From NCBI GenBank assembly GCA_015490995.1, contig WFWT01000011.1, forward strand, positions 1 through 54,181: a stretch of 54,181 nucleotides of DNA, in the 5' to 3' direction. This DNA is from Anaerolineae bacterium (GTDB lineage Bacteria; Chloroflexota; Anaerolineae; JAADDB01). The translations under genes were made by a program, and so were the position numbers. Of this stretch, positions 8,392 through 45,036 are shown piece after piece. Under the pieces are notes generated by a model that made no database searches, was not told where the DNA came from, and saw nothing but the letters and a program-made list of their open reading frames with translations. Every line of letters starts with the position of its first letter. Within the stretch, counting starts at the first letter, position 1.

Positions 8392-10188
8392 TTATACTTT
8401 GGCGTGTACCGCGCCCGGAACGCCGTAATCATACGGGCCGCTGAGCACTTCAGGCACCCGCGGGAAGTTGTGCTCCGGCGGCGGCGAAGGTGTCGCCCAC
8501 TCCAGCGTTCGGGCCCCCCACGGATTCGCCTCGGCCACGGGCCCACGGATCCAGGACACCACCAAGTTGTAGACGAAGATGAGGAAGCTGGCCCCCAAAA
8601 TGAAGGCGGCCATGCTGACAAACATGTTCATGCCGGCCAGGTCCGGCGGATAGTCGCCAATGCGGCGATTCATGCCGTGCAGGCCCAGCCACGCCATGGG
8701 GAAGAAGGTCAGGTTGAAGAAGATGAACATCAGCCAGAAGTGGAGGCGTCCCAGCGCTTCGTTGTACATGCGGCCGGTCATCTTGGGGAACCAGTAGTAG
8801 ATGCCGGCGATCAACCCGAAGATGCCACCACCCAAAATCGTGTAATGGAAGTGGCTGACCACCCAGAACGTGTCATGCAGGTGCATGTCGGCCGGCAGGT
8901 CCGAGTTGAACACACCTGTCAGACCGCCGATTAAGAAGTTGAATAACATGCCCAACGCGAACAACATCGGTGTCTTAAAGCGCAGTTTGCCTCGCCAGAG
9001 GGTGCCCAACGCGGCCAGGAAGATCAACCCCGTCGGCACCGAGATAGCCTCGGTGGTCGCCATGAAGGGAACGTGGAGGGTTTCCGGCATGCCGCTGGTG
9101 AACATGTGGTGCGCCCACACGGTGAAGCTCAAGGCAGTGACTCCGGCCATACCCGCTACGGCCCAGCGGTAGGCGAAGAGCGGTTTGCGGGCAAAGTGGG
9201 CCAGGATCTCCAACATAATGCCCCACGAGGGCATGATCATCACGTAAACCGCCGGGTGGGAGTAAAACCAGAAGACGTGCTGATAAATTAGGGGGTATCC
9301 GCCACGGGCCGGGTCAAAGAACGCCGTCTGCGCTACCCGGTCCAGCACGGTCATGATCATGGCCACACCCACAAACTGCGTGGCCGTGAGGGACATGATG
9401 GAGGTCATGAAGATGGACCACACAAAGATGGGCACGCGGCCCCAGGTCATGCCCGGCGCGCGCATGGTGATGATGGTGGTCAGGAAGTTAACGGACCCCA
9501 CAACGGAGGAGAGACCACCGGTGAAGAACGCCAGGTTGTAGAACATCTGGCCGGGCTCATTGGTGATGGCCAGGGGCGGATAAGCCGTCCATCCACTGTC
9601 CCACCCACCGAAGAAGGGGCTGAGTAACAGGAGAATGGCTGCCGGCGGCCAAATCCAATAGCTCAACGCGTTCATGCGGGGAAAGGCCATGTCATCCGCG
9701 CCGATCATCAAGGGCACAAAATAGTTGCCGAACATGCCCGGCACGGCCGTCACGGCCACCAGCACCATCAGGAAGCCATGCATGCTCATTACCCGGTTGT
9801 AGGTGGCAAAGTCGAAGATGTCCCGACCGGGCCGCATGAGCTCGATGCGCATGGCCATGGCCAACAAGCCGGCGAGGAGGAACATGCCTATAAAGGTGAC
9901 GCCGTACTGAATGCCGATGACCTTGTGGTCCGTGTTAAACCCGAAGTAACGGCGCCACCCTTCCTCCTTGTACGGGCGAGGCTCCATGCCCAGGAATTCC
10001 CGCATCCACGTGTCCCAGACACCCACGCCCAGCAACCAGCCAGCCAGGCCAAACAGGTACCCGACGAAGAACAGCGGCCCGAACACCCACGGCTCCATCC
10101 CCAGCGCAATACGCACTAGCGCCGTGAGCAGCGCGCCGATAGCAAACCCGATAAGTCCCCACAAAAGGCCTCGAAATACCGGCAACAT
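8392..10188 (-). CDS. coxA: Cytochrome c oxidase subunit I (A2-type heme-copper oxidase)
   Basis: The catalytic subunit, about 598 residues, reduces O2 to water and pumps protons. Heme and copper ligands are visible: His137 (MSMHGF), His311 and Tyr315 (YSHPAVY; His-Tyr pair), His360-His361 (AHH), His446 and His448 (SHFHY). The D-channel glutamate of A1 oxidases (HPEVY) is Ala; the YSHPAV motif is the A2-type signature. The K-channel region HHMFTSGMP is normal. An N-terminal extension of about 80 residues carries two extra hydrophobic segments (8-30 and 35-56) before the canonical fold. ATG 10188 follows GGAGGAGGAG. It is cotranscribed with coxB, 57 bases upstream. Confidence 0.97.
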   Translation of the reverse strand: MLPVFRGLLWGLIGFAIGALLTALVRIALGMEPWVFGPLFFVGYLFGLAGWLLGVGVWDTWMREFLGMEPRPYKEEGWRRYFGFNTDHKVIGIQYGVTFIGMFLLAGLLAMAMRIELMRPGRDIFDFATYNRVMSMHGFLMVLVAVTAVPGMFGNYFVPLMIGADDMAFPRMNALSYWIWPPAAILLLLSPFFGGWDSGWTAYPPLAITNEPGQMFYNLAFFTGGLSSVVGSVNFLTTIITMRAPGMTWGRVPIFVWSIFMTSIMSLTATQFVGVAMIMTVLDRVAQTAFFDPARGGYPLIYQHVFWFYSHPAVYVMIMPSWGIMLEILAHFARKPLFAYRWAVAGMAGVTALSFTVWAHHMFTSGMPETLHVPFMATTEAISVPTGLIFLAALGTLWRGKLRFKTPMLFALGMLFNFLIGGLTGVFNSDLPADMHLHDTFWVVSHFHYTILGGGIFGLIAGIYYWFPKMTGRMYNEALGRLHFWLMFIFFNLTFFPMAWLGLHGMNRRIGDYPPDLAGMNMFVSMAAFILGASFLIFVYNLVVSWIRGPVAEANPWGARTLEWATPSPPPEHNFPRVPEVLSGPYDYGVPGAVHAKV

Positions 10189-37250: not shown

Positions 37251-37472
37251 TTAAGCCAAGGAAACCTCCGGCGCGGGTGGATAGCCAATCTCCTTCAGGG
37301 TTGCCTCCACCTGCGGCAACACATCGTCATCAGACACTTCTACCACCACCCGCTTGGTGGAGAGGTCGGCCTGAACCGACACCACACCTTCCAGGGCCTT
37401 CAGTTCTCTCTCGATGGCCATCACGCAGTGGTCACATGACATGTCCGGGCACAGGTAGGTTTTGGTGGCCAT
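37251..37472 (-). CDS. copZ: Copper chaperone CopZ (HMA domain)
   Basis: A 73-residue ferredoxin-like metallochaperone. The metal site is M-S-C-D-H-C in YLCPDMSCDHCVMAI; an additional Cys just before the motif is unusual. The remainder (LKALEGVVSVQADLSTKRVV, VEATLKEIGYPP) is a standard HMA domain. It binds Cu(I) and passes it to efflux ATPases or to copper sites. ATG 37472 follows AAGGAGGG; the frame opens 13 codons earlier without support. It starts 16 bases after csoR in the same operon. No CopA ATPase is adjacent. Confidence 0.93.
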   Translation of the reverse strand: MATKTYLCPDMSCDHCVMAIERELKALEGVVSVQADLSTKRVVVEVSDDDVLPQVEATLKEIGYPPAPEVSLA

Positions 37473-37488
37473 AACGTTCCCTCCTTCG

Positions 37489-37767
37489 CTACAGTTTACC
37501 TGTTTCCTCAAATACGCTGACGATCTCCTTCATGACCCGGTCCCGTTCGCCGGGGTCTTCGCTACACACAGCAGTGGCAACACAGGTGTTTAGGTGATTC
37601 TCCAAAATGCGGGCGTTGACCCGTTCGAGGGCCTTTTGCACTGCGTGAATTTGGCGCATGATGTCGATGCAATACGCGTCTTCCTCGACCATGCGGGCGA
37701 TACCGCGCACATGCCCCTCGATGCTTCGTAAGCGTTTCAACACGTCCTGTTTAATTGCCGGGTTCAT
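37489..37767 (-). CDS. csoR: Copper-sensing repressor CsoR
   Basis: A 92-residue all-helical DUF156 repressor that leaves DNA when Cu(I) binds. The Cu ligands of the family are present: Cys in DAYCIDIM, then His and Cys in ENHLNTCV (C-x-n-H-x3-C). IKQDVLKRLRSIEGHVRGIARM is the DNA-contact helix region. An extra Cys lies in AVCSED. AAGGAGC is 8 bases before the ATG. A GC-rich palindrome overlaps its transcription start, so autoregulation of csoR-copZ by copper is strongly suggested. Confidence 0.94.
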   Translation of the reverse strand: MNPAIKQDVLKRLRSIEGHVRGIARMVEEDAYCIDIMRQIHAVQKALERVNARILENHLNTCVATAVCSEDPGERDRVMKEIVSVFEETGKL

Positions 37768-37939: not shown

Positions 37940-38141
37940 AGAGTGGACACCTCGCACCCACCAGAAGGCCTTGGAGCTGGGTTATACCCTCACGCAGTAG
38001 GTGAGGTCATCCTCCACGAAGGGAGGTGGGAGCAGAAGCACGAGGCAGTGAGGCGGTGGGCTGTTCTTCTCCTGCGCGGTTCATGTGTCACATCCCCCAA
38101 CTGTCCTTATCCGGCATGGTTGTTCACAGGAGGAGGGCGTC

Positions 38142-39899
38142 ATGTCGGGTGGTATTGCCATTCTTATAGCCATTGTGTTGTCCGTCCTGGGATATCGGCT
38201 TTATTCCAAGCGGGTGGATCGGGAGATTATCCAAGCGGATCCTAAGCGGGCAACGCCGGCCGTGATGTACCAGGACGGGGTGGATTTCATGCCGGCCAGT
38301 GGGAGTGTGCTCTTCGGGTATCAGTTCAAGTCCATCGCTGCCCTGGGACCGATCGTGGGCCCGATTACGGCGGCCCAGTGGGGGTGGTTACCGGGGCTGC
38401 TCTGGCTGTTGTTGGGCGTGCTGTTCATCGGTTGGGTGCAGGACTATGCCGCGGCCATGATGGCCATGCGGAACGAAGGCATGACCATGGGAGGGCTTTC
38501 CTACAAGTTTATCTCCCCGCGGGCCCGGAATATTCTTCTGGCTTTTATGTACTTCTATCTCCTCCTCATCATGGGGGCCTTTGGTTTCGTGGTAGCCGGG
38601 TTGCTGGCGGACCCGCGTGTTCCCATCGGGTTTGCTATCCTGGCCCTTTCGGGCGTGTTGGCCGGGTACATGACGTATAAGCTTAAGCGGGACCTGATCT
38701 TCACCACGGTGGTGACGGTGCTCCTGGCCTTTGTGGGGGTTTGGATCGGCCAAACGGCGCCGGCTCAGAGCATCATCAAGGCCATTAACGGTGGGCCGGA
38801 GTCGTTTGTACTGTACCAGACACCCTATGGGCCGATGAAGTTCTCCGTGTGGTTGTGGGGCATCATTGCCCTAGGTTTCTGTTACCTGGGGTCGGTGTTG
38901 CCCATCTGGCAGTTCGCCCAGCCGATTAACTACACCTCTTTCTGGCTGGTCCTCTTCGGCATCGTGGGTTCGATTGTGGGCATCATCTTGGCCAGCATGG
39001 GCATGGGGGGCGTGAACGCGGCGTACTCGGCCATGCCCGCTTTTGTGGCCTTCAACATTCACCTGGGTCCCCTGTGGCCTATCCTGTTTGTGACCATTTC
39101 GTGCGGGGCCATTTCCGGCTGGCACAGCTTGGTGTCCACGTCAGGCACGGCTCGCCAGCTGGAAAAGGAGACGGACGCGCTCCCGGTCGGGGGTGGCGCC
39201 ATGTACATGGAAGCAGTCCTGGGGGTGCTGTCCCTTACCTTCGCGGCCACGTCCGTCGGGCTGTATGATCCGGCGCAGAACTTCAAGTTGACCGCCGGGG
39301 CCGGGGCGGTTTTCGCTCGCGGCATGGCCACCTTCTTGAGCGTTCTGGGCATCCCGCAGGACTTTGGCGCGGCCTTCGGCTCCATCTTCCTGGCCGTAAT
39401 GGCGCTCACGGTGATGCAGCTGGTGTTGCGCTTCATGCGCATTGCCAGCGCTGAGCTGTTGGGGGAGCGCATTCCGGCCTTTAAGAACCCGCACTTTGGC
39501 TCCATAGTGGCCATTCTGTTCACCCTGCTCATCCTGTGGACGGCCTTCTGGCAGCAAATCTGGGTGCTCTTCGGCGGCTCGAACCAGCTGTTCGCGGGCC
39601 TAGCGCTGTTGCTGATCACCATTTGGCTGGCGCGGGACGGCAAACCGCACGGCTGGACGCTCTGGCCTGGCCTGTTCATGTACTTCACCACGGTGGCAGC
39701 GTTGCTGTACACCGCGTACGACATCTTCTTCCGGAAGATCCCACAGGCACAGGCGAAGGGAGCTGCCTTTGTGATCGGCAACGGCGTCGCCGGGTTGATC
39801 GCGCTCTTCCTGGTGTTGGCCGCCGTGGTTCTGCTGGCCGATGGCTGGCGGTCCTTGCAGGCGGCCGAGCGTGGTGTTCCGGCGTCAGGCGGCGAATAG
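38142..39899 (+). CDS. cstA: Carbon starvation protein CstA, peptide/pyruvate transporter family
   Basis: About 585 residues with some 15-16 membrane helices. The CstA signature is at the start (YSKRVDREIIQADPKRATPA, YQDGVDFMPASGSVLFGYQF, SIAALGPIVGPITAAQWGWL) and in the middle (WQFAQPINYTSFWLVLFG; CGAISGWHSLVSTSGTARQL). Members import peptides or pyruvate during carbon limitation. The protein is shorter than E. coli CstA (701) and lacks part of its C-terminus, as in many Gram-positive-type homologues. ATG 38142 follows AGGAGGAGGG. No BtsSR-like sensor is nearby; a dyad at the promoter implies a repressor. Confidence 0.95.
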   Translation: MSGGIAILIAIVLSVLGYRLYSKRVDREIIQADPKRATPAVMYQDGVDFMPASGSVLFGYQFKSIAALGPIVGPITAAQWGWLPGLLWLLLGVLFIGWVQDYAAAMMAMRNEGMTMGGLSYKFISPRARNILLAFMYFYLLLIMGAFGFVVAGLLADPRVPIGFAILALSGVLAGYMTYKLKRDLIFTTVVTVLLAFVGVWIGQTAPAQSIIKAINGGPESFVLYQTPYGPMKFSVWLWGIIALGFCYLGSVLPIWQFAQPINYTSFWLVLFGIVGSIVGIILASMGMGGVNAAYSAMPAFVAFNIHLGPLWPILFVTISCGAISGWHSLVSTSGTARQLEKETDALPVGGGAMYMEAVLGVLSLTFAATSVGLYDPAQNFKLTAGAGAVFARGMATFLSVLGIPQDFGAAFGSIFLAVMALTVMQLVLRFMRIASAELLGERIPAFKNPHFGSIVAILFTLLILWTAFWQQIWVLFGGSNQLFAGLALLLITIWLARDGKPHGWTLWPGLFMYFTTVAALLYTAYDIFFRKIPQAQAKGAAFVIGNGVAGLIALFLVLAAVVLLADGWRSLQAAERGVPASGGE

Positions 39900-39909
39900 C
39901 CGACATCGC

Positions 39910-39942
39910 ACGGGGCGGGGACGCCCCCGCCCCGTTATTCTA
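39910..39942 (+). terminator. cstA terminator
   Basis: CGGGGCGGGG (39911-39920) pairs with CCCCGCCCCG (39925-39934), followed by TTATTCT. Confidence 0.8.
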
Positions 39943-39964: not shown

Positions 39965-40378
39965 ATGACGTATGCTGTCGACATCACGGTGGTAACACGA
40001 GCGCTGGAGAGCATGCAACACTGCACCCACTGTCAGGTCTTCATCGAGGAGGCCGGCGTGGGACCACAGGTCCATGCCGAGGCCTTCCGGAGTTATCCCC
40101 CGGACATCCGCGAGGAATACGCGCGCGTTTCCGCCATGATTGCGGAAGTGTTGGCGCGGTTCGGTGACCGGGTGAACGTGCGTGTGGTGAATGCCTTCTC
40201 CCCGGAGGGCCTGTGGTTGGCACTGCGGCGCGGGGCTCGACAGTATCCTACATGGTTGGTTGGACGTCAAAAAATAGTAGGATATAATATGCCAGAAGTG
40301 ATCGCTGCTGTTCAAGCTGCGTTGGGAAGCACCAGGCCGCCGGAACATCCTGCCCCAGCCTCTTCTTCCACCAAGTGA
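39965..40378 (+). CDS. Thioredoxin-like fold protein with CTHC motif
   Basis: A 137-residue cytoplasmic protein. ITVVTRALESMQHCTHCQVF places a CxxC pair (C-T-H-C) at the start of a helix after a strand, and RQYPTWLVGRQKIVGY supplies the cis-proline loop of the thioredoxin fold, followed by a closing helix. The middle helix (YARVSAMIAEVLARF) is longer than in thioredoxin. It could be a thiol-disulfide or metal-handling protein. GAGGAT precedes the ATG. It is the first gene after the cstA terminator and heads the cluster ending in the two ArsA-like ATPases. Confidence 0.7.
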   Translation: MTYAVDITVVTRALESMQHCTHCQVFIEEAGVGPQVHAEAFRSYPPDIREEYARVSAMIAEVLARFGDRVNVRVVNAFSPEGLWLALRRGARQYPTWLVGRQKIVGYNMPEVIAAVQAALGSTRPPEHPAPASSSTK

Positions 40379-40492
40379 CGGTTCCGGCACCTATACGCCC
40401 AACGGGCTGAACACCGTAACATGGACGTGTGCCTTCCCATCGCACGGGGTACAGGCGGTGTGCACAACCTTACATCGCTGGAGGGGGAGTAG

Positions 40493-40783
40493 ATGGCCGA
40501 GGCACAGCTTCGAGAGGAAAAGCGCACCTTTTGGGAACGGGTCAAGGGAGTTGTTGCGGACTTCATTTATGGGATGGCCACCCATGAAATGGCCCGGCAA
40601 GCCCTGAAAACGCGGGGCAGTATGGAACACCTGTTCATTCTCATCACTATGGGTGACTTATTGGGCATACCGATCCTGCCCCCGTACTATTCCCTGCGCC
40701 TGCTCCCGTACGTGGTGCCCCAGATTTCCACGTGGAAGCGGCGCATGCTCCGGGAACGGGATCTCACCGACGCCCTGGCATAG
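40493..40783 (+). CDS. Small membrane-associated hypothetical protein
   Basis: No family recognised. 96 residues: a charged N-terminal helix (AEAQLREEKRTFWERVKGVV), a central hydrophobic but kinked part (MEHLFILITMGDLLGIPILP, PPYYSLRLLPYVVP), and a basic C-terminus (WKRRMLRERD). It could be a peripheral or hairpin membrane protein. GGAGGGGGAG is a strong ribosome binding site. It lies between the thioredoxin-like gene and the lipoprotein gene on the same strand, within the ArsA-like cluster, and could be a client or partner of the ATPases. Confidence 0.7.
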   Translation: MAEAQLREEKRTFWERVKGVVADFIYGMATHEMARQALKTRGSMEHLFILITMGDLLGIPILPPYYSLRLLPYVVPQISTWKRRMLRERDLTDALA

Positions 40784-40845
40784 CGCGGCTGGGGAGTAAC
40801 CCTGTGATACCGGTCGGACAGGCATGTGAAGAAAGGAGGTTCTTC

Positions 40846-41853
40846 ATGTTTTCCCGGCGTCGCACGTTCACCCTGGTTCTTATCCTAGTGGCAATCGTAC
40901 TTGCCGGATGCGCGCCAGCTGCGCCCTCGATGGATAAAGCTGTCTCAGAACTGGCCGCCTATGCCGAGTCCAGTAATCGCTTTGCCCTGAAGTTACCACG
41001 CCTGTATGTCCAATATGACAATAACGGCGTTCTCGGTGTGGCCGGCATTACCACCAATGACGTGTATCGGTGGTTCGGGATCGACCTCCGGATGATGAAC
41101 TTGCAACCTTGGGTGATCCAGAACCTGGTACGGGCAAATATCCAGCACATTGAGATCACCGAAAGTGCCGACGGCCTGGCCATCTACGTTAACGGTGAGC
41201 CCCTGCCCTACATCGCGTGGGATGGGGAATCCCTGGCCAACCTGGGGCAGATCTTACCTGGCCTTGGTGTTCCCTACGGTGAGATTGTGGGCAAGGTGTT
41301 GCCCCTTATCCGTTTTACCCAGCTCAGCCTGGTGGTGCAATTCCCGGTCGCACCGGGCCGGGAGCTGATCCCCTTCCGCGATCCCAATGCCCCTCCGGTG
41401 GTGGCCCCACGGGCCCGCATGGTGGAGGAACCACCGGCCGTTGTGCGCCTGGAGATCGCGTACGACGAGGAGGGGATGCCTTCCATCCTGGGCATTAACG
41501 CACGTACCCTTATGGCGCTGGGAGTAGATGTCCGTCCGCTGGCGTTGAACCGAGCCTTGATTCGTTCCCTGATGCAGGCCAACGTCCAACACGTGCACTT
41601 TGTCAACCGCCCCGATGGGATTCACATCTTTGTGAACAACCAGCCTATTCCCTACGTGGCATGGGATGACGAGCACGTCAACACCGCCTTGGAATTGTAT
41701 GCCCAGGTATCCGGCCTGGGGAACTCGCCGGTGGTGCGCCTGCTCACGCAACTCCTGCCCATGATGCGGGCCTCGGAGATTGACGTGTTGCTCCGCTTCC
41801 CCGTACCGGAGGGCGCCCAACCTATCCCTGTCCTGGAAGCGCCAGCCCAATAA
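40846..41853 (+). CDS. Lipoprotein with a tandemly duplicated domain
   Basis: No known family. The 335-residue precursor has a lipoprotein signal (RRRTFTLVLILVAIVLAGC, lipidated Cys in LAGC). Two homologous halves of about 125 residues follow. The first has LRMMNLQPWVIQNLVRANIQ, HIEITESADGLAIYVNGEPL and PYIAWDGES; the second repeats these as LALNRALIRSLMQANVQHVH, HIFVNNQPIPYVAWDDEH. Each ends in a helix and a strand LLxRFPV/VVQFPV. Such a duplication suggests a two-fold binding surface outside the membrane. ATG 40846 follows GAAAGGAGGT. It precedes the ArsA-like pair. Confidence 0.8.
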   Translation: MFSRRRTFTLVLILVAIVLAGCAPAAPSMDKAVSELAAYAESSNRFALKLPRLYVQYDNNGVLGVAGITTNDVYRWFGIDLRMMNLQPWVIQNLVRANIQHIEITESADGLAIYVNGEPLPYIAWDGESLANLGQILPGLGVPYGEIVGKVLPLIRFTQLSLVVQFPVAPGRELIPFRDPNAPPVVAPRARMVEEPPAVVRLEIAYDEEGMPSILGINARTLMALGVDVRPLALNRALIRSLMQANVQHVHFVNRPDGIHIFVNNQPIPYVAWDDEHVNTALELYAQVSGLGNSPVVRLLTQLLPMMRASEIDVLLRFPVPEGAQPIPVLEAPAQ

Positions 41854-41887
41854 CGGAAACACGCCATAGGAGACACAGGAGGACCCG

Positions 41888-42217
41888 GTGAAACAACAAT
41901 TCATTGTGCTGCGGATCGTATCCTTGTTGTTCAAGGTCGGGGCTACCCTGATGCTCCTCCTTGGGCTGGCGTCATTGGCCTTTGGCCTGGGTCGATTGAT
42001 CGCGGTTACCGGTGGGAACGGGGGTATTGTCGGGTGGGTCCAGGTGGGAGCCGCTCTAGTCGTGGCCGTGTGGAGCACCGTACAATTTATGGTGCTATAC
42101 GCGGTGGGCGAGAGCCTTAACGTGTTGATGGCCATTGAGGAAAACACGCGCGCTACTAGCATGCGCATCGTCCGTCTGTTAGCCCTCCTTTCGGAGGAGG
42201 AAAAAGCTGCCGGCTGA
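41888..42217 (+). CDS. Small two-helix membrane protein
   Basis: No family recognised. 109 residues with GTG start and AGGAGGACC upstream. Two membrane helices (about 8-36 and 47-73) are followed by a cytoplasmic amphipathic helix (GESLNVLMAIEENTRATSMR, then RIVRLLALLSEEE). The pattern of short membrane anchor plus coiled C-terminus is common in partner proteins. It ends 130 bases before the first ArsA-like gene, with a terminator hairpin between. Confidence 0.7.
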   Translation: MKQQFIVLRIVSLLFKVGATLMLLLGLASLAFGLGRLIAVTGGNGGIVGWVQVGAALVVAVWSTVQFMVLYAVGESLNVLMAIEENTRATSMRIVRLLALLSEEEKAAG

Positions 42218-42244
42218 GGCCGGCGCCTCTCCTGCTGAGAGGCC

Positions 42245-42284
42245 GAGGCTTGTGGGTGGGCCTGCCCATCTGCAAGCCTCTTTC
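42245..42284 (+). terminator. Terminator or attenuator before the ArsA-like genes
   Basis: GAGGCTTG (42245-42252) and CAAGCCTC (42273-42280) with an inner GGGC-CT-GCCC stem, then TTTCTC. No new promoter was seen before the ATPase genes, so read-through may control them. Confidence 0.65.
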
Positions 42285-42347
42285 TCGGTCCGAGGTGCGT
42301 CGGTATCACCGCCGGGGGCCATCCCGGCCGCGCAAGGGAGGTGAGTC

Positions 42348-43322
42348 ATTTCCCTGGCAAAGGTCTTTCGAGAGCATCCGGAACGCCGCTACGTGATGTA
42401 CGGCGGCAAAGGGGGGCTGGGTAAAACCACGTTCTCGGCCGCGACCGGGTACTGGTTGGCCCAGCAGGGATACAAAGTCCTGGTCTTCTCCGTCGACCCA
42501 CAGGCGTCCCTGTCCGATATCTTCCAGAAAGATATCTTCGGCAAGGGTGCAGTCCAAATTATGCACAACCTCTACGCCCAGGAAATCGATGCCGACCGCC
42601 GCATTAAAGAATACCAGGAGGAAATTCGCCAGAAAATCTTCGACATGTATGGTCTGGACAGGATCCCAGACGAGATCGAGCAGTACATCCAGGCCGCGGC
42701 CGCGGAACCGGCTATGGAGGAAAGCGCTATCTTTGATGCGGTGGTCGACATTATTGTGGGGGGAGAGTACGACTATTACATCTACGACCTCGTCCCCCTG
42801 GGCCACGCGCTCTACTACTTGAGCATGGCCAAGGTATACGACGAATGGATCGAACGCATTACTAAACTGCGAGAGGAAATGCGCGAATACGAGGAGATGG
42901 CAGCCCGCGTGCGGCGGGAGGAACTGCAGGAGGACGAAATCCTGCGAGAACTCCTGTACATCAAAAACCGTATCAACACCGCGTCCTCCATCCTCACGGA
43001 TAAGGAGCGCACGGCGTTCTTCTTCGTTCTCATCCCGGAAGAGATGGTGATTCGAGACACATTGAAAGCCCGGGACTTATTCGTCAAGTTCGACGTGCCC
43101 ATCAGCGGTTACATCGTTAACCGTGTCTTGCCCGATTATTTAATTCAGGAAGATGTTCCCCCCTATATCAAGCACCGGTACGAAATGCAACAGGAGTACA
43201 TTCAGCGCATCAAGGAGACGTTTGGCCACGAGGTGTTGGGCTGGGTACCGGAGTTCGAGCGGGATGTCTCCGGTCTCGACATGATCGCGCGTGTGGCCGA
43301 AGTGATGTTTGAGGAGGGATAG
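42348..43322 (+). CDS. ArsA/Get3-like ATPase, subunit 1 (probable ATT start)
   Basis: About 324 residues of the deviant Walker A (ArsA/GET3) family. The P-loop is GGKGGLGKTT with the signature Lys; switch I keeps the catalytic Asp (SVDPQASLSD, about residue 50); switch II is degenerate, DLVPLGHALYYL instead of DTAPTGHTLR. The rest is helical, with ILTDKERTAFFFVLIPEEMVI and ISGYIVNRVLP. The first ATG/GTG (42393-42396) would remove strand one and has no ribosome binding site. GGAGG (42337-42341) sits six bases before ATT 42348, giving an N-terminus (FREHPERRYV) that aligns with the paralogue. It ends 2 bases before subunit 2. Confidence 0.85.
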   Translation: MSLAKVFREHPERRYVMYGGKGGLGKTTFSAATGYWLAQQGYKVLVFSVDPQASLSDIFQKDIFGKGAVQIMHNLYAQEIDADRRIKEYQEEIRQKIFDMYGLDRIPDEIEQYIQAAAAEPAMEESAIFDAVVDIIVGGEYDYYIYDLVPLGHALYYLSMAKVYDEWIERITKLREEMREYEEMAARVRREELQEDEILRELLYIKNRINTASSILTDKERTAFFFVLIPEEMVIRDTLKARDLFVKFDVPISGYIVNRVLPDYLIQEDVPPYIKHRYEMQQEYIQRIKETFGHEVLGWVPEFERDVSGLDMIARVAEVMFEEG

Positions 43323-43324
43323 CG

Positions 43325-44311
43325 GTGCGCATCGAGAAGAGCTTCCGTCAGTTTGTGGAAGAACATCCCAACCTGAAATACACCTTTTTCGGGGGCAAAG
43401 GTGGCGTGGGCAAGACCGTGTTGGCCGGCGCGGCGGCCGTGGGCTTCGCCCGCCTAGGTAAGCGCACGCTGCTGGCGTCAACAAACCCTGTCCATTCCCT
43501 CTCCAGCTTGCTGGATCAGGATGTCTTCGGCAAGCCCACCCCTGTGGAAGGCATTCCCAACCTGTGGGCTTACGAGATCGACACCCGGGACACGATCGAA
43601 CGTTCGAAGCGTGAGATCAAGGAGAAGATCGAATGGTTCCTCCGCTTTGCGGAGATCCGCACCAAGGCCGACGAGTTTGTGGAGTCGGCCACCATGAACC
43701 CCGCCTTCGAAGAGTCGGCCATGTTTGAAAACATGATCGACATTATGTTCAAGGACGAATACGAGGTGTACGTCTTCGATACCGCGCCCACGGCCAATGC
43801 CCGTCGGTTGCTGGGGATGTCCTCGGTGTATTCCCTGTGGGTGGACAAGATGATCAAAAGCCGTCAGGAGGCCCAATCATTGCGCAAGTTGCTTTCTTAT
43901 TCCAAGGACAAGGAAGAGAAGGACCCCCTCATGGAGTACTTGGTCAACTTCCGCGATAGGATGATGCGGGCAAAGGCGCTTTTGACCGACGACGAGAAGA
44001 CGGCCTTTTTCTTCGTCACCCTCCCCGAGGCGTTACCCATTGCGGTGATCCGACGGTTTATAAACTGGTTCACCGACTTTGGTATACCCATCGGCGGGGT
44101 GGTGGTCAACATGCTTATTCGAGAGGAGGAAGTGGGGGAAGGCGCGGCGGAATTTATCCGCAACCGCCTGACCATGCAACAGAGGTACATGCAGGAGATC
44201 GAGGAGCTCTTCGACGGGCTGGTGCGAGCGTTGATTCCCCTCTACGAGACGGAAGTGCGGGGCGTGAACATGCTCTCTCGGGCTGCTGAAGACCTGTTCG
44301 CCTCGCCGTAA
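43325..44311 (+). CDS. ArsA/Get3-like ATPase, subunit 2
   Basis: A 328-residue paralogue of the preceding gene (GTG start, 2 bases after its stop; GAGGAGGG upstream). The P-loop is GGKGGVGKT (signature Lys 25, Lys 30). Switch I is STNPVHSLSS: the catalytic Asp of ArsA (DPxHSLS) is Asn54. Switch II is intact in its first half, DTAPTANARRLL. The helical insert (about 90-230) replaces the ArsA metal site; no CxC or arsenite cysteines are present. ArsA-like pairs occur in Chloroflexi and Chlorobi but their cargo is unknown. A heterodimer with subunit 1 is likely, since each keeps a switch the other has lost. Confidence 0.9.
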   Translation: MRIEKSFRQFVEEHPNLKYTFFGGKGGVGKTVLAGAAAVGFARLGKRTLLASTNPVHSLSSLLDQDVFGKPTPVEGIPNLWAYEIDTRDTIERSKREIKEKIEWFLRFAEIRTKADEFVESATMNPAFEESAMFENMIDIMFKDEYEVYVFDTAPTANARRLLGMSSVYSLWVDKMIKSRQEAQSLRKLLSYSKDKEEKDPLMEYLVNFRDRMMRAKALLTDDEKTAFFFVTLPEALPIAVIRRFINWFTDFGIPIGGVVVNMLIREEEVGEGAAEFIRNRLTMQQRYMQEIEELFDGLVRALIPLYETEVRGVNMLSRAAEDLFASP

Positions 44312-44388: not shown

Positions 44389-45036
44389 CTATTGCCCGCG
44401 CCCGGATCGCACCGGTATTTGCGCCAGCAGAGCAAACAAACGTTCCACTGCTTGGACGTCGGGCAAATCGCGGAGAGGAATGACAAGGGAAATGTGAGGG
44501 GCCTTGCGGCGGAGGGTCAATTGGTATAAATGTGGCACGTGATGGGCTAACTTCTCCAGGAATTGGGTCATGGCCGAGCTGGGTTCACCGTGTACGTACA
44601 ACGGCCCCCGCCACGGTGAGGTGGCCACACGATGCCATGCTGTTCCCTCCTCTTGTGTGGGATGCTCCGCGTGTGCCCCGGCCCGCACTTCCTGCACCGG
44701 GGGTCGCAGCAGTGTCACGTGCAAATACAGCCGATCCCCACGCCCTCGTAGGCGGTTCACCAGCCAGTAAAACAAAAATTCACGAGGCTGTACAAATAAC
44801 AAGGCGTCGATCTTGCGAAATGGCCGTTTGGCCTTTGGCACTAAAATGTGATATCCTGAGGTGCCAAGACGACGTGCACTGGCCTTATCCGCATATTGCA
44901 GGAGTGGGCCACGCAAACGAGCTAAATACTCTTCCAGCAGTCGACGGTTACGCACGGTTCCGACGATAAATCCGACCACTACGATGGCGGTAACGATCAG
45001 AACAGCGGTAAACCCGGGATCACGCCACCAATCCAT
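44389..45036 (-). CDS. Membrane-anchored hypothetical protein
   Basis: No family recognised. 215 residues: one N-terminal membrane helix (about 8-27, FTAVLIVTAIVVVGFIVGTV), a basic stop-transfer (RNRR), then a soluble cytoplasmic domain of about 185 residues with mixed alpha-beta character (FYWLVNRLRGRGDRLYLHVT, HISLVIPLRDLPDVQAVERL). It looks like a single-pass protein with a globular body. It converges on the ArsA-like pair and could belong to that neighbourhood, but on the opposite strand. No clear promoter; AGAATA around 45052 may be a -10. Confidence 0.65.
   Translation of the reverse strand: MDWWRDPGFTAVLIVTAIVVVGFIVGTVRNRRLLEEYLARLRGPLLQYADKASARRLGTSGYHILVPKAKRPFRKIDALLFVQPREFLFYWLVNRLRGRGDRLYLHVTLLRPPVQEVRAGAHAEHPTQEEGTAWHRVATSPWRGPLYVHGEPSSAMTQFLEKLAHHVPHLYQLTLRRKAPHISLVIPLRDLPDVQAVERLFALLAQIPVRSGRGQ

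Follow-up and report, generated by a model that had tools for sequence, protein, structure and literature searches.

A Chloroflexota locus of the CstA-CstX-ArsA type with two Get3-family ATPases that differ by a fixed Asp/Asn substitution

Homologues of ArsA of about 330 aa were described by Castillo and Saier in 2010 in operons with cstA and cstX, the latter encoding a protein of about 90 aa (PMC2963123). The link between CstA, CstX and ArsA was derived independently from their coevolving trees. A further gene, cstY, whose product has about 210 aa and one membrane helix, was reported in the same study from five archaea only, and adjacent pairs of ArsA genes were noted in Symbiobacterium thermophilum and Pyrobaculum arsenaticum (cluster 15; PMC2963123). 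In the literature we found no biochemical evidence for any CstA-linked ArsA and no experimental follow-up of the 2010 prediction. Escherichia coli CstA works with an unrelated small protein, YbdD (PMC5847655), and the two genes are neighbors (cstA-ybdD); the CstA-family protein BtsT, annotated as a pyruvate:H+ symporter, is encoded next to yjiX, followed by yjiA, a P-loop NTPase annotated as a GTPase. Because neither E. coli CstA nor BtsT has an adjoining ATPase of the ArsA/Get3 family, ATP is not needed for CstA transport in general.

We analyzed a stretch of 54,181 nucleotides from an Anaerolineae bacterium (contig WFWT01000011.1), here called the window, and identified in it the CstA-CstX-CstY-ArsA system in the version that Chloroflexota have (Table 1). 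A preliminary description, made from the sequence alone, had listed six plus-strand open reading frames at 39965-44311, all of which are present, with short gaps of 2-130 bases and only 2 bases between the two ATPase genes, and had proposed that they form an undescribed membrane-linked system beginning after the cstA terminator. The system cannot be called undescribed, because the combination of CstA, CstX, CstY and an ArsA homologue was already predicted in 2010 (PMC2963123). Nor does the terminator mark its edge: cstA is the most constant partner of the ATPase pair, and the conserved gene set extends further on both sides, to cstA and to the candidate cstY on the minus strand, while omitting two of the six genes. 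Like cluster 15 of Castillo and Saier, the window combines CstA, a CstX of about 90 aa and an adjacent pair of single-domain ArsA proteins of about 330 aa; unlike cluster 15, it adds a CstY candidate and a thioredoxin-fold protein. Upstream of cstA, divergent and on the minus strand, 37251-37767 encodes a metal repressor of the CsoR/RcnR type and an HMA protein that binds heavy metals.

Table 1. Features of the locus, in window coordinates
Feature	Position	Strand	Remarks
CstA-family transporter gene cstA	38085..39899, likely ATG start 38142	+	Pfam CstA E 7e-112
Terminator-like hairpin 3' of cstA	39910..39935	+	GC-rich stem, 11 pairs, 10 of them GC
Predicted thioredoxin-fold CxxC protein, frequent cassette member	39965..40378	+	
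CstX, 96 residues, b-type paralogue	40493..40783	+	Profile match and co-occurrence
Two-domain lipoprotein, inserted module	40846..41853	+	Absent from 37/37 other cassette loci
109-aa two-helix protein, partner of the lipoprotein	41888..42217	+	
ATPase 1 (A1), 324 aa	about 42348..43322	+	Switch I SVDPQA, Switch II DLVP, no zinc CxxC
ATPase 2 (A2), 328 aa	43325..44311	+	Switch I STNPVH, Switch II DTAP, no zinc CxxC
CstY candidate, 215 residues, one N-terminal membrane helix and a globular domain	44389..45036	-	

We searched 400 Chloroflexota genomes with A2. Its orthologs formed one sharply separated group (E below 1e-78), found in 37 of the genomes and always as an adjacent pair wherever both ends were assembled. 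Besides the window's own locus, we compared 37 loci from 36 other genomes (one with two loci), in which CstA, the CxxC protein and the 215-residue protein recurred as neighbors, together with the 96-residue protein in one to three copies. CstA was present in 39 of the 400 genomes and the 96-residue family in 37. Among the 37 pair genomes, 36 contain CstA and 36 contain the 96-residue family; these counts and the associated Fisher tests ignore relatedness, and the genomes span 18 families. Contig ends account for some of the absences; for example, only the first 50 residues of A1 remain in one genome (G126). CstA without both the pair and the 96-residue family was seen only in G078 and G167. 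In at least three genomes both CstA and the pair are present at a distance or on separate contigs (on one contig in G205; also G189 and G269). Because the relation is close to one-to-one even where the genes are unlinked, we count cstA as a member of the system. The CstY candidate was found in 33 of 40 CstA/pair genomes against 0 of 40 controls, and is missing from 4 of the 37 pair genomes. At two loci (G205:C1:1674172-1678173 and G269:C78:92008-96002), the cstY candidate is grouped with a third cstX, apart from cstA and the ATPase pair. The conserved system consists of cstA, cstX, A1, A2 and the cstY candidate, with the CxxC protein as a frequent member.

The cassette reaches well beyond this phylum. 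A scan of GTDB genomes with A2 recovered it in Bathyarchaeota, Pyrobaculum, Methanoperedens and Symbiobacterium, and in Deltaproteobacteria, Gemmatimonadota, Acidobacteriota and Acetobacteraceae. The loci of Symbiobacterium thermophilum (L086) and Pyrobaculum (L079) have the same gene order. Plasmid searches gave no match with CstX and only distant ArsA proteins with A2, including two haloarchaeal plasmid ArsA neighborhoods without CstA.

Two of the six genes do not belong to this set. The lipoprotein was correctly described as having two homologous domains: it carries the lipobox LAGC, and its halves align at 32.6% over 129 aa (E 6.6e-26). The 109-residue protein has the two hydrophobic segments expected of a two-helix protein. 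Homologues of either were found at 0 of the 37 other cassette loci examined in Chloroflexota, but in 8 of 8 relatives examined the two genes occur together, with the cassette beside them in none. A genome of the same genus (G400) has the two-gene unit and lacks an ATPase pair of the cassette kind. The lipoprotein and 109-residue genes are a separate two-gene module inserted into the cassette here, rather than clients or partners of the ATPases as had been suggested. This module (40846-42217) is conserved in the class, and its neighbor in two of the three loci read (L174 and L176) is pyrG, the CTP synthase gene.

The view that 39965-44311 is a single new operon and system draws on the shared strand of its genes and the short gaps between them. 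It is refuted for the two module genes, which are missing from 37 of 37 other cassette loci and paired alone elsewhere, and it leaves out the members cstA and candidate cstY; as a whole we give it almost no credence. What stands of it is that the ATPase pair is part of a membrane-linked system and that the CxxC and 96-residue proteins belong with the pair: in most genomes the ATPase pair occurs without the lipoprotein and 109-residue genes, and this does not hold for the 96-residue and CxxC genes.

The 96-residue protein matches the CstX profile of single-ATPase systems (99.5%, E 5e-23). Because that profile represents the small protein whose gene separates cstA from arsA in Bacillaceae, Halomonas and haloarchaea, which are groups of the sort listed in the 2010 study (PMC2963123), we identify the protein as CstX. 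Described earlier as membrane-associated, the protein has one borderline hydrophobic stretch. The YbdD family (PF04328), the usual partner of CstA, has no member in any of the 400 Chloroflexota genomes, and CstX may for this reason fill the place of YbdD. The E. coli operons resemble the window in combining a transporter of the same family with an adjoining small protein, and the btsT operon also has a P-loop NTPase (YjiA); however, YbdD and YjiX are not homologous to CstX by profile and YjiA carries a GTPase annotation, so that only the arrangement is alike. We also considered CstX as a divergent YbdD/YjiX (PF04328) and rejected this, with hhalign probabilities of 1-3% in two profile comparisons. 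Elsewhere in the window's genome, an a-type CstX paralogue is encoded alone and away from the cassette (L060:5512-5802; G000:C47, about 9511-9801), and two more weak CstX-like matches occur (C90 and C34).

CstX differs between the two kinds of system in its C-terminus, which ends in Cys-Cys at 29 of 38 single-ATPase loci versus 0 of 44 paired-type copies. The NCBIfam cory-CC-star protein appears to represent CstX in those CstA systems that have a single ATPase (L105-L157). Its model NF041419 gives the 96-residue protein 34.8 bits, under the threshold of 80, and the 96-residue protein has no Cys-Cys tail. The tail of the cory-CC-star protein resembles that of the unrelated YbdD/YjiX. Homologues of the CxxC protein were found at 23 of 38 Chloroflexota loci, the gene being missing from about a third, and C20, C23 and P95 are invariant among them. 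As the preliminary description had anticipated, its predicted model has a thioredoxin fold (thioredoxin matches with probability 1.0, E about 3e-3). Such a thioredoxin-fold protein occurs at 12 of 29 paired loci and at 0 single-ATPase loci, and our guess is that it replaces the Cys-Cys tail of the single-type CstX.

The two adjacent ATPases are full-length and ArsA/Get3-like as reported, with Pfam ArsA_ATPase matches of E 1.5e-71 (A1) and 3.5e-68 (A2) and scores above the cutoff of TIGR00345, the Get3 family. Their separation from arsenic was also well judged. Each has a single domain and zero cysteines, arsenite cysteines included, and no arsenic permease or ArsR-type gene is present among the open reading frames examined at 37.2-45 kb. 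We rejected identity with the ArsA arsenite pump, which has a double domain, since scores against TIGR04291 were 89 and 107 bits for a cutoff of 650. A known parallel is BagA/BagB (Rv3679/Rv3680), which are also two Get3-like paralogues and were solved in one structure (PDB 6bs3). Identity with these was rejected too, as A1 scored 47 bits against a cutoff of 400 and 35 against 521 in the NCBIfam equivalog models. We know of no CstA context for BagA/BagB.

A tree of 137 ATPases places A1 in one clade (support 99) and A2 in another (99), with the two as mutual sisters (99) beside a clade of CstA-linked single ATPases; archaea and bacteria occur in both clades. The paired form is the product of a single old duplication spread across Bacteria and Archaea. 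The catalytic position of Switch I is Asp in 44 of 44 A1 and Asn in 44 of 44 A2, compared with Asp in 35 of 35 single ATPases. This fixed Asp/Asn split is new, being absent from the 2010 description. Switch II reads DLVP, DMPP or DMMP in A1 versus DTAP or DTSP in single ATPases, while A1, A2 and single proteins all retain the signature lysine. The zinc CxxC of Get3 was found in none of the 88 A1 and A2 rows listed and is absent in the single type too. Relative to archaeal Get3, the segment of the client groove is reduced in length and, to some extent, in hydrophobicity. In Get3/TRC40, the mutation D57N impairs hydrolysis, leaves nucleotide binding unimpaired and traps clients (PMC6633398). The pair is like Get3/TRC40 in its ATPase family, and A2 naturally has the residue of the D57N/D74N trap mutants; it is unlike Get3/TRC40 in lacking the zinc CxxC, in consisting of two paralogues and in being tied to one transporter. 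If one member of a Get3-family pair invariably has Asn in place of Asp, this would amount to a naturally fixed trap state.

The 215-residue protein fits CstY in size, one-helix topology and co-occurrence, and its Bathyarchaeal homologue adjoins CstA; we regard it as the candidate CstY. Its structure was predicted with pLDDT 86 and pTM 0.80. The best two PDB matches to this model by Foldseek were both CCDC47 (7tm3_4, E 2.2e-7, TM 0.66; 6w6l_7, E 4.2e-4, TM 0.50), with no other PDB match below E 1e-2. CCDC47 belongs to the PAT complex and is a subunit of the multipass translocon of eukaryotes; prokaryotes reportedly have no PAT components (PMC9630114). In both CCDC47 and CstY a single membrane helix precedes the same fold, which is predicted for CstY (TM 0.66, E 2.2e-7), but sequence similarity between them is not significant: PF07946 gave no match up to E 10, and hhalign gave 0.6%, the CCDC47 stretch compared being identical to 6w6l_7. 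We therefore describe a shared fold, set aside kinship by sequence and do not claim homology. If bacteria and archaea do have a CCDC47-like fold, this would have implications for the origin of the eukaryotic multipass translocon.

How the components might act together can be set out as follows. CstA is a transporter of the pyruvate/peptide type, and at the membrane A1 and A2 would assemble into an asymmetric heterodimer, in which A1 could hydrolyse ATP while A2 would bind ATP and barely hydrolyse it, serving as the fixed or regulatory half. CstX and the one-helix CstY would hold this dimer beside CstA, whose activation or maintenance in a working form would depend on the ATP cycle of the dimer. 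The thioredoxin-fold protein may contribute a dithiol, for which single-ATPase systems may have the Cys-Cys tail of CstX instead. That an asymmetric A1-A2 heterodimer acts on CstA through CstX and CstY is the reading we consider probable. The 4 of 37 pair genomes that have no CstY, and the third or so of loci that have no thioredoxin-like gene, count against it.

The strict tie to one transporter is compatible with energizing, regulating or assembling CstA. According to the 2010 proposal, the ArsA-like ATPase energizes CstA directly, making a pump of a secondary carrier by way of CstX. The coevolution of ArsA, CstA and CstX (PMC2963123) and their near-obligate co-occurrence agree with this; however, its main precedent is ArsA-ArsB, the catalytic Asp is missing from one half of the pair in every case, and BtsT, of the same family, carries the annotation of a proton symporter. 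We judge direct energizing improbable. A somewhat better case, although still an unlikely one in our estimate, can be made for a dedicated machine for CstA biogenesis or maintenance, in which the Get3-family pair and a CCDC47-like CstY would chaperone the insertion and folding of the many-helix CstA instead of powering or regulating its transport. The family of the ATPases, the strict tie of the cassette to a single multipass client and a possible folding role for the thioredoxin-like protein all suit such a machine, and the predicted fold of CstY, that of a multipass-translocon subunit, speaks for it. Yet the zinc CxxC that holds the Get3 dimer is lost in A1, A2 and the single type alike; together with the partial loss of the hydrophobic groove, this speaks against tail-anchor delivery. 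Moreover, a general chaperone is unlikely to track one transporter, and the resemblance of CstY to CCDC47 does not extend to significant sequence similarity.

A bolder version joins these elements: CstY as a prokaryotic counterpart of CCDC47 and a Get3-family heterodimer with a natural trap subunit could together make a dedicated complex for membrane-protein assembly or quality control that serves a single transporter, a prokaryotic forerunner or analogue of parts of the GET and PAT machinery of eukaryotes. We think this doubtful. The 2010 prediction is now directly testable, given a large comparative set in both domains with a clean split between single and paired systems, and it has gained new handles in one residue that tells the ATPases apart and a fifth component.

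The beginning of the A1 gene deserves comment. The conserved N-terminus of A1 is without ATG, GTG or TTG, and judging by its relatives the protein starts upstream of 42393, probably at ATT 42348 or CTG 42354. This putative rare start codon lies just 3' of a strong ribosome-binding site, GGAGGTGA.
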